A stretch of DNA of 64,000 nt from Arcticibacter eurypsychrophilus (GTDB taxonomy: Bacteria; Bacteroidota; Bacteroidia; Sphingobacteriales; Sphingobacteriaceae): assembly GCF_001730525.1 (NCBI RefSeq), contig NZ_MDFN01000002.1:124001-188000 (forward strand). Reading direction: 5' to 3'. The notes below the pieces were generated by a model, which searched no databases, had not been told where the DNA came from, and was given only the letters and a program-made list of their open reading frames with translations. Both the position numbers and the translations under genes were made by a program. Of this stretch, positions 10,281-12,689 are shown piece after piece (position 1 is the first letter of the stretch; each line of letters starts with the position of its first letter).

Positions 10281-11834
10281 TTATTTCGCGTAAGACACAG
10301 AACGTGTCTCACGAATTACTGTTACTTTAATCTGTCCCGGATAAGTCATCTCCGTTTGAATCCGGTTAGAAATATCGGCAGCTAGAATCTCAGACTGTGC
10401 ATCAGTGATCCGTTCACTTTCAACAACAACACGTAACTCACGACCCGCTTGGATCGCAAACGTTTTTTCAACCCCAGGATAAGAAAGCGCCAATGCCTCT
10501 AAATCCTTAAGTCGTTTGATATAACTTTCCACTACCTCACGACGTGCACCGGGGCGCGCTCCAGAAATAGCATCACAAGCCTGAACTATCGGGGAAATCA
10601 TAGAAGTCATTTCCACTTCATCATGATGGGCTCCAATCGCATTACATACTTCAGGATGCTCTTTATACTTTTCAGCAAGTTGCATACCCAATATAGCATG
10701 TGGCAATTCAGGATTGTCATCCGGCACCTTACCAATATCATGAAGCAATCCTGCACGCTTAGCCAACTTGACATTTAAACCCAGTTCAGAAGCCATAGTT
10801 GCACAAAAATTAGCAACCTCTCTTGAATGCTGCAATAGATTCTGACCATAAGAAGACCGGTAACGCATCCGTCCAATCATCCTGATTAATTCAGGATGTA
10901 AACCATGGATACCTAAATCAATCACAGTACGCTCACCAATTTCAACTATTTCGTCCTCAATTTGCTTTTTAGTTTTAGCAACAACCTCTTCAATACGGGC
11001 AGGATGGATACGACCATCCGTTACCAAACGATGAAGTGCTAATCGGGCAATTTCCCGACGTACCGGATCAAAACCGGAAAGAATAATTGCCTCTGGCGTA
11101 TCATCTACAATGATTTCAACACCCGTTGCTGCTTCCAACGCACGGATATTACGACCTTCACGACCAATTACCCTACCCTTTATTTCGTCATTTTCAATGT
11201 TAAATATGGATACTGTATTTTCAATTGCCGATTCTGTAGCCGTACGTTGAATAGTCTGGATCACTACCTTTTTCGCTTCTTTACTAGCGGTAAGCTTTGC
11301 TTCATCCACAATGTCCTTAATCTGGATCATTGCCTTCGAACGGGCCTCTTCACGCAAACTATCCACCAGTTGATTTTTCGCCTCTTCAGCAGAAAGTCCG
11401 GCAATAGCTTCCAGTTTAGATTGATGCTGTAACCGTACCACTTCAACCTCTTCCTGTTTAAGCTTGGAAGTTTCAATCTGCTTTTCCAAAGTCTTCTTCA
11501 ATGTTTCCGACTCCAGCTCCTTTTTATTCGCATTTTCAAGCTTTTGATTCAGCGACTGCTCTTTTTGCTTAATCGAATTCTCGCGTTGATTGATGGTATT
11601 GTTACGCGTGTTCACTTCCTGATCGTACTCAGCCTTCAATTGTAAAAACTTTTCCTTTGCCTCCAGAAGTTTGTTTTTCTTTAAAATCTCCGCATTATTT
11701 TCAGCGTCTTTTAAAATCTTTTTTACTTTGTTCTGTGCCGATACTTCCTGGCCTTTCAATAATTTGCGGAGCATGAATCTCCCAATTACCACACCGGCAG
11801 CTATTCCTAATAAAACGTAAAGTACTATATCCAT
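10281..11834 (-). CDS. rny: ribonuclease Y
   Basis: This 517-residue membrane-anchored endoribonuclease initiates mRNA decay. Visible parts in order are an N-terminal membrane helix (about 1-20), a long Lys/Glu-rich coiled coil (about 25-175), a KH RNA-binding domain (about 216-262, [19 protein letters not shown]) and an HD phosphohydrolase domain with [14 protein letters not shown] at 365-369 and the later HHDE. The length matches the family (about 520). It lies at the end of a conserved division/translation run (pheT, coiled-coil, zapA, 6S RNA) and has its own terminator. Confidence 0.97.
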
Positions 11835-11846
11835 ATCTGTTTTAAA

Positions 11847-12022
11847 TAAAAAAAACCGCAGTTAAAAACTTGAACCCCATGTACTGTAAAACTTCATCAA
11901 ATAAAGATTAGAGTATTAATCATAATCAAGTAGACAAGCTAAGTGATTTACATTTTTTAACTCTTTTGATATTGAAGTGTTAAGTTTATTACAATAGTGA
12001 AACTCAAGAATTAACTGCGGTT
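11847..12022 (-). ncRNA. ssrS: probable 6S RNA between zapA and rny
   Basis: On the minus strand the transcript would start near 12022 with AACCGCAGTTAA and end near 11854 with the exact complement TTAACTGCGGTT, followed at once by a run of eight U residues. Inside, CTTGA pairs with TCAAG, and further in ACTTC..ATCAAA pairs with TTTGAT-GAAGT and AGAGT with ACTCT. This gives a rod of about 175 nt with bulges, the shape of 6S RNA. Location next to zapA is the classic position of ssrS in many bacteria. The stretch has no ORF. 6S RNA binds the housekeeping RNA polymerase and mimics an open promoter. The assignment rests on structure and synteny, not on a covariance match. Confidence 0.72.
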
Positions 12023-12066
12023 AAGTCTTAATGTAATGCCCATATTTATATAAAGAACGTATACTA

Positions 12067-12357
12067 CTACTTCGAAAAAAAGTTACCAAGCAACTGATCC
12101 AATTTATAAACAGTATCAGAGGCTTCTATATCTCCCTCTGATAATTTCTTTTCTGCCCTTAATGTAGCTGTAGCATAATGCAGCACACTCATAGATAGCA
12201 AATCCTGTTTATCCCTGACCGCATAATTGTCCTGGTACTCTTTTATACGATCATTGATCATTTTAGCTGCCTTCCGCACTATTTCTTCCTCTTCCATATT
12301 TATCTTTAAAGGATAAACACGGTCAGCAATATTTATTTTTATGGAGATTTCTCCCAT
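12067..12357 (-). CDS. zapA: cell division protein ZapA
   Basis: The 96-residue protein has the short N-terminal beta part typical of ZapA (ISIKINIADRVYPLKINMEEEE), then the helix VRKAAKMINDRIKEYQ, and a C-terminal coiled coil (about 45-90). ZapA binds FtsZ and bundles protofilaments at midcell. It lies 24 nt downstream of a small coiled-coil gene and upstream of the 6S RNA. Length and order of elements fit the family. Confidence 0.88.
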   Translation of the reverse strand: MGEISIKINIADRVYPLKINMEEEEIVRKAAKMINDRIKEYQDNYAVRDKQDLLSMSVLHYATATLRAEKKLSEGDIEASDTVYKLDQLLGNFFSK

Positions 12358-12380: not shown

Positions 12381-12689
12381 CTACTTTTTCAGTAACACAA
12401 TACATTTATCTATTTCCCGCACAAATTCGCTAATTTTTTGCTTAATATCAAGCGTTTTTTCATTGGGATCTAATTTTTTTGCTGTTATCCCCTCCAATGA
12501 CCGCGCTAGCTTCAGCACATTCATCTTTTCATCCATCTCAACAGCCTTCTTTTTGCCTGTTTCCACCGCCGACTGTAAAGATTGATTTTCAAGCTTTAAC
12601 AAGTCATTTTCCTCCTGTAGAGCCTCACATAACTCAATCAATCGATGAGTTCTATCAAGTACACTATTTAATTGTCCGGCAAGCGACAT
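12381..12689 (-). CDS. small coiled-coil protein in the zapA operon (ZapB-like)
   Basis: The 102-residue product is almost entirely heptad-rich (LNSVLDRTHRLIELCEALQE, then ENDLLKLENQSLQS), with no membrane segment and no enzyme motif. It lies between pheT and zapA with close spacing, so it is likely co-expressed with zapA and acts in division or as a ZapA partner by analogy with ZapB. Similar small proteins are usually annotated hypothetical. The functional link is inference from gene order. Confidence 0.65.
   Translation of the reverse strand: MSLAGQLNSVLDRTHRLIELCEALQEENDLLKLENQSLQSAVETGKKKAVEMDEKMNVLKLARSLEGITAKKLDPNEKTLDIKQKISEFVREIDKCIVLLKK

Follow-up and report, generated by a model that had tools for sequence, protein, structure and literature searches.

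The window analysed here, a stretch of 64,000 nucleotides from Arcticibacter eurypsychrophilus, contains zapA and rny (RNase Y) on the minus strand, separated by a gap of 232 nt. In an ORF scan, no frame of at least 60 aa overlapped this gap, which agrees with the original prediction that no ORF lies there. Judged from its sequence, the minus-strand segment 11848–12024 (about 175 nt), whose ends were placed from an outer stem and a U-run, is a 6S-like RNA gene of the 6S-Flavo type. 6S RNA is a small bacterial RNA that restrains RNA polymerase and serves as a global brake on transcription. The features are given below in the order in which the minus strand is read; R1 is a covariance model built from Sphingobacteriaceae only.

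12067–12357, minus strand: zapA, the upstream neighbour (PF05164, 63 bits)
11848–12024, minus strand: predicted 6S-like RNA gene, assigned from the R1 match at 11851–12024, the fold and a sub-threshold RF01685 match inside
12011–12022, minus strand: 5′ arm of the closing stem, AACCGCAGUUAA, with compensatory changes in relatives
11998–12009, minus strand: 5′ arm of the second rod helix, UCUUGAGUUUCA, assigned from structure and position
11968–11987, minus strand: AAACUU helix and 5′ strand of the central bubble, AACACUUCAAUAUC, in nearly invariant alignment columns
11910–11964, minus strand: apical arm, consisting of the AGAGU/ACUCU helix and an inner hairpin (helices 4–6)
11895–11909, minus strand: 3′ strand of the central bubble, AAUCUUUAUUUGAUG, between helices 3 and 4
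11878–11894, minus strand: AAGUUU helix partner and the conserved ...UACAUG, assigned from alignment columns
11869–11879, minus strand: 3′ arm of the second rod helix, UGGGGUUCAAG, assigned from structure and position
11854–11865, minus strand: 3′ arm of the closing stem, UUAACUGCGGUU, pairing exactly with AACCGCAGUUAA
11848–11855, minus strand: U8 run directly 3′ of the stem, a terminator-like 3′ end; in the relatives examined, too, the stem is followed by a U-run
10281–11834, minus strand: rny (RNase Y), the downstream neighbour (PF12072, 133 bits, plus KH and HD domains)

The closest named relative is Arcticibacter svalbardensis, whose strain MN12-7 has an RNase Y 99% identical to the one encoded in the window; Pedobacter, Mucilaginibacter, Daejeonella, Olivibacter, Parapedobacter and Sphingobacterium are the other close relatives, which places the window in Sphingobacteriaceae. 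Upstream of zapA lies a 102-aa ORF without a Pfam match (12381–12689, minus strand), which is conserved in the corresponding location in flavobacteria and stands where ZapB does in proteobacterial zapB-zapA-ssrS arrays. Elsewhere in the window, a group II intron domain (RF02001) is strongly matched at 2117–2289 on the minus strand (122 bits), with no ORF of at least 100 aa between 947 and 2661 around it; it may be what is left of an intron, or an intron that lacks its reverse transcriptase.

The zapA stop codon is followed immediately, at 12049–12059 on the minus strand, by a conserved element, CGTTCTTTATA (CGTTCTT). Of 117 family gaps, 98 have it in this location, often together with RGAGC, a putative partner for a hairpin. 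A role as promoter of the RNA was considered and rejected: in Pedobacter-type gaps, where extra sequence lies between the element and the RNA, the element remains beside zapA, and its position is thus independent of the RNA start. A sigma-70-type scan recognised no minus-strand promoter, although Bacteroidota promoters differ from that consensus.

The predicted RNA is closed by an exact 12-bp stem; an imperfect rod, an open centre and an apical arm follow, and U8 forms its end. Both terminal elements were found just as originally described, with AACCGCAGTTAA (5′ to 3′ on the minus strand) at 12022–12011, its exact complement TTAACTGCGGTT 157 nt away at 11865–11854, and the eight U residues at 11855–11848. 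The minus strand folds into a rod at −42.5 kcal/mol (z −3.71), a value equalled by none of 200 shuffled sequences, and the opposite strand folds more weakly (z −3.30); the rod-like minus-strand structure originally observed is confirmed. 6S RNAs in general are rods of about 160–200 nt with a closing stem, a large central bubble and an apical arm (PMC8876501), and all of these parts are present here, as six covariation-supported helices around an open centre. The most conserved sequence of the RNA is AACACUUCAAUAUC, from which, by analogy, product RNA would be templated. An additional short pairing that would bridge the central bubble was also considered (mean −2.77 versus −2.14 kcal/mol for swapped partners, 0 of 200), and is not claimed because the relatedness of the sequences was uncontrolled in this comparison. 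Among Markov sequences with the composition of the gap, 0.7% contain an exact 12-bp inverted repeat; such repeats are not rare in the window as a whole, which holds 51 of them, and the repeat alone is therefore weak to modest evidence. The strong evidence for the RNA is comparative.

At curated cut-offs, no Rfam family matched the locus. In a relaxed search the best match was 6S-Flavo (RF01685), with 27.6 bits over all 108 model positions and exactly at the locus; this was the highest 6S-Flavo score in the 4.7-Mb genome, of which 9.4 Mb of strand were searched; the second-best match reached 22 bits. The covariance hit anticipated by the original prediction therefore exists for 6S-Flavo, but it falls below the gathering cut-off of 85 bits and is not accompanied by a match to the general 6S model (RF00013), which found nothing at E ≤ 10 in the genome and hence offered no competing locus. 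The Flavo-1 model that had been suggested gave no match, the relevant Rfam family being 6S-Flavo. The RNA has gone unannotated because the standard family model scores it so much lower than its cut-off, which misses the RNA in every one of the 61 Sphingobacteriaceae genomes sampled. Within the family, two of three weak RF01685 matches fell in the zapA-rny gap (G055, 34.2 bits; G038, 26.7 bits). Across the phylum, 17 of 148 genomes contained an RF01685 match at E ≤ 0.01, seven of them above the cut-off, and 16 of the 17, including all seven, lay between zapA and rny in the same orientation, the position occupied by the window locus; near the remaining match (L069) there was neither zapA nor rny. 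Several flavobacterial copies in the zapA-rny gap are likewise below the cut-off, at 49–84 bits. Because of its 27.6 bits, and because flavobacterial copies also fall short, we name the locus a diverged orthologue rather than a curated RF01685 member.

The search was then reversed with R1. This model scores 144.6 bits at 11851–12024, a figure to which the window's own sequence, being part of the model, contributes, and on the opposite strand it scores 21 bits versus 145. It recovers 13 of the 16 zapA-rny copies of 6S-Flavo at the same place, with E values from 1e-6 to 9e-4; under strict whole-genome filters it did not detect the flavobacterial copies. Since RF01685 matches the window locus and R1 recovers flavobacterial 6S-Flavo, the homology runs both ways, and synteny agrees; the reciprocal matches show homology to a recognised 6S family even with the direct match below the curated cut-off. 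We also considered another polymerase-binding RNA, such as one resembling Ms1, which would bind core polymerase lacking sigma. Ms1, described from Actinobacteria, has a structural relationship to 6S RNA (PMC9130861). The homology of the window RNA is to 6S-Flavo, however, and the relaxed Rfam search found no other polymerase-binding RNA family at the locus, so that we assign this alternative next to no probability.

In a more distant Bacteroidota family, one zapA-rny gap (L189, 1298–1487, plus strand) contains a full-length, sub-threshold RF00013 match of 19.5 bits. As a lead only, this suggests that the zapA-rny arrangement is old in the phylum, extending beyond flavobacteria and Sphingobacteriaceae.

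The zapA-rny gap was read in 50 Sphingobacteriaceae loci, 38 of which contain a full-length RNA of about 160–180 nt with a single layout. Its internal core, AAACUUAAC[AG]CUUCAAUAU, is near-invariant, as is the partner AAGUUU...AAUACAUG, and the strict core pattern occurs in 86 of 129 distinct gap sequences. In a sequence-only alignment of 27 members, read against a 41-pair structure, 90.9% of cells were paired, a percentage that leans towards the structure because the latter was drawn by hand from these same 27 sequences. The informative part of this test is the two-sided changes, which affect 22 pairs and supply the compensatory changes among relatives that the original prediction called for; compensatory change was seen in all six helices, and the covariation score was 0.328 versus 0.203 after shuffling and no more than 0.143 after sliding. 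A joint alignment with the flavobacterial copies (sense rows only), which leans towards the structure because it was fitted to the model, was 93.6% paired and contained 173 two-sided cells versus a shuffle maximum of 68; in this fitted alignment most positions of the closing stem differ between Sphingobacteriaceae and flavobacterial copies while pairing is kept. A structure that is nothing but a terminator, its loop drawn out into a long rod, or else a structured RNA unrelated to 6S and similar to it by chance, could account for the terminator-like outer stem and U8 and for a 6S-Flavo match that stays below the cut-off. Neither is easily reconciled with compensatory change in every helix around a near-invariant internal core, with the independent recovery of flavobacterial 6S-Flavo by a Sphingobacteriaceae model, or with the best RF01685 hit in all the strand searched being this locus, and we regard explanations of this kind as extremely improbable.

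The proximity of the RNA to rny raises a different question, namely whether the stem and U-run form a cis-acting rny leader, an attenuator or an RNase Y target through which rny regulates itself without any trans-acting RNA. In the window, 13 nt separate the end of the U-run from the rny start codon, and in relatives the spacing is usually 11–30 nt; the short forms of the RNA described below retain the outer stem and U-run without the core. This spacing, however, varies between 11 and about 207 nt at a steady RNA length of about 160–180 nt, the RNA's most conserved letters lie in the unpaired core, and it is homologous to 6S-Flavo. A leader alone is thus a very unlikely account of the locus.

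The covariance matches, the zapA-rny position and the recovery of flavobacterial copies by R1 together point to an orthologous, diverged 6S RNA. We put at roughly 0.93 the probability that the locus encodes this organism's 6S RNA, orthologous to Rfam 6S-Flavo but diverged from it, in the order zapA - 6S - rny. What had been proposed from shape and neighbourhood is borne out by the RF01685 match, the shared gap, the R1 recovery and the compensatory changes, and the RNA adds a formerly unannotated member to a known kind. Against the 6S reading stand the lack of a match at any curated cut-off or to RF00013, the flavobacterial copies that R1 misses under strict filters, the promoter scan that recognised nothing, and the absence of the conserved core from the syntenic RNA in several Sphingobacteriaceae lineages. 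In these lineages, the zapA-rny RNA is shortened to about 80–155 nt, mostly 80–140, with the outer stem and U-run kept and the standard core absent. The shortened loci are:

Group g5: L049, L051, L052
Group g6 (genomes of 1.7–1.8 Mb): L030, L031, L032, L038
Mucilaginibacter group g3 (part of Mucilaginibacter): L020, L021, L024
Single others: L034; L019

The R1 family model found no second good copy elsewhere in 13 short-form genomes. To judge from these sequences, 6S RNA may be reduced in such lineages, or it may have been lost there and the terminator before rny kept. A dual role, in which the zapA-rny RNA is both 6S and an rny leader and some Sphingobacteriaceae lineages retain the outer stem and terminator after loss of the 6S core, seems to us rather unlikely; if true, it would couple RNase Y expression to the global control of polymerase and provide natural cases of 6S loss or minimisation. 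The short-core lineages would be useful for probing which parts a 6S RNA requires. The conserved zapA-6S-rny order offers a simple way to find 6S, and the family alignment provides a model that works in Sphingobacteriaceae.

6S RNAs are rods whose open centre mimics an open promoter; they bind RNA polymerase and are freed after templating product RNAs (PMC8876501). In the Bacteroidota, 6S RNA and product RNAs have been seen in Bacteroides thetaiotaomicron (PMC7366714), and 6S RNA has been detected in Flavobacterium psychrophilum (PMC9723704). By homology and architecture, the window RNA would probably occupy polymerase and be released through product RNAs in the same manner. Its conserved rod, built from the closing stem, the second helix and the AAACUU/AAGUUU helix, leads into an open centre with a near-invariant 5′ strand and then into the apical arm. 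We propose that the rod with its open middle would imitate an open promoter and, once cells cease to grow, would occupy the polymerase that carries the primary sigma factor. On outgrowth, this polymerase would copy the 5′ bubble strand into short product RNAs, and the 6S RNA would be released. The closing stem and U-run would act as the 3′ terminator, and some transcription may read through into rny.

The closest parallels are other 6S RNAs. With 6S/SsrS (RF00013; E. coli ssrS), the window RNA shares the rod with a central bubble and the location downstream of zapA; the adjacency of zapA and ssrS invoked by the original prediction is documented, a ZapB-ZapA-ssrS order having been described for beta- and gamma-proteobacteria (PMC7641849). 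It differs in having no RF00013 match and in being followed by rny, whereas fau/ygfA or EVE follows ssrS. Bacteroidales-1 (RF01693), which Rfam annotates as '6S-Bacteroidales RNA suggested', overlaps a 6S-Flavo match at zapA-rny in three other Bacteroidota genomes (G071, G112 and G153), whereas the window locus has no match to it; three chance-level matches occur elsewhere in the genome, the best at 18.3 bits. From 6S-Flavo RNA (RF01685; Weinberg et al. 2010, PMC2864571) the window RNA differs in the sequence of its closing stem (CCGCAGUUAA versus GCCUACAUUAGU), in its added second rod helix and in its score, the Rfam model spanning only the 108-nt core. The two nevertheless share the zapA-rny position and strand, the core ACUYAAC[AG]CU ... 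GRAGUUU and the apical arrangement, and their covariance models recover each other's copies in both directions.
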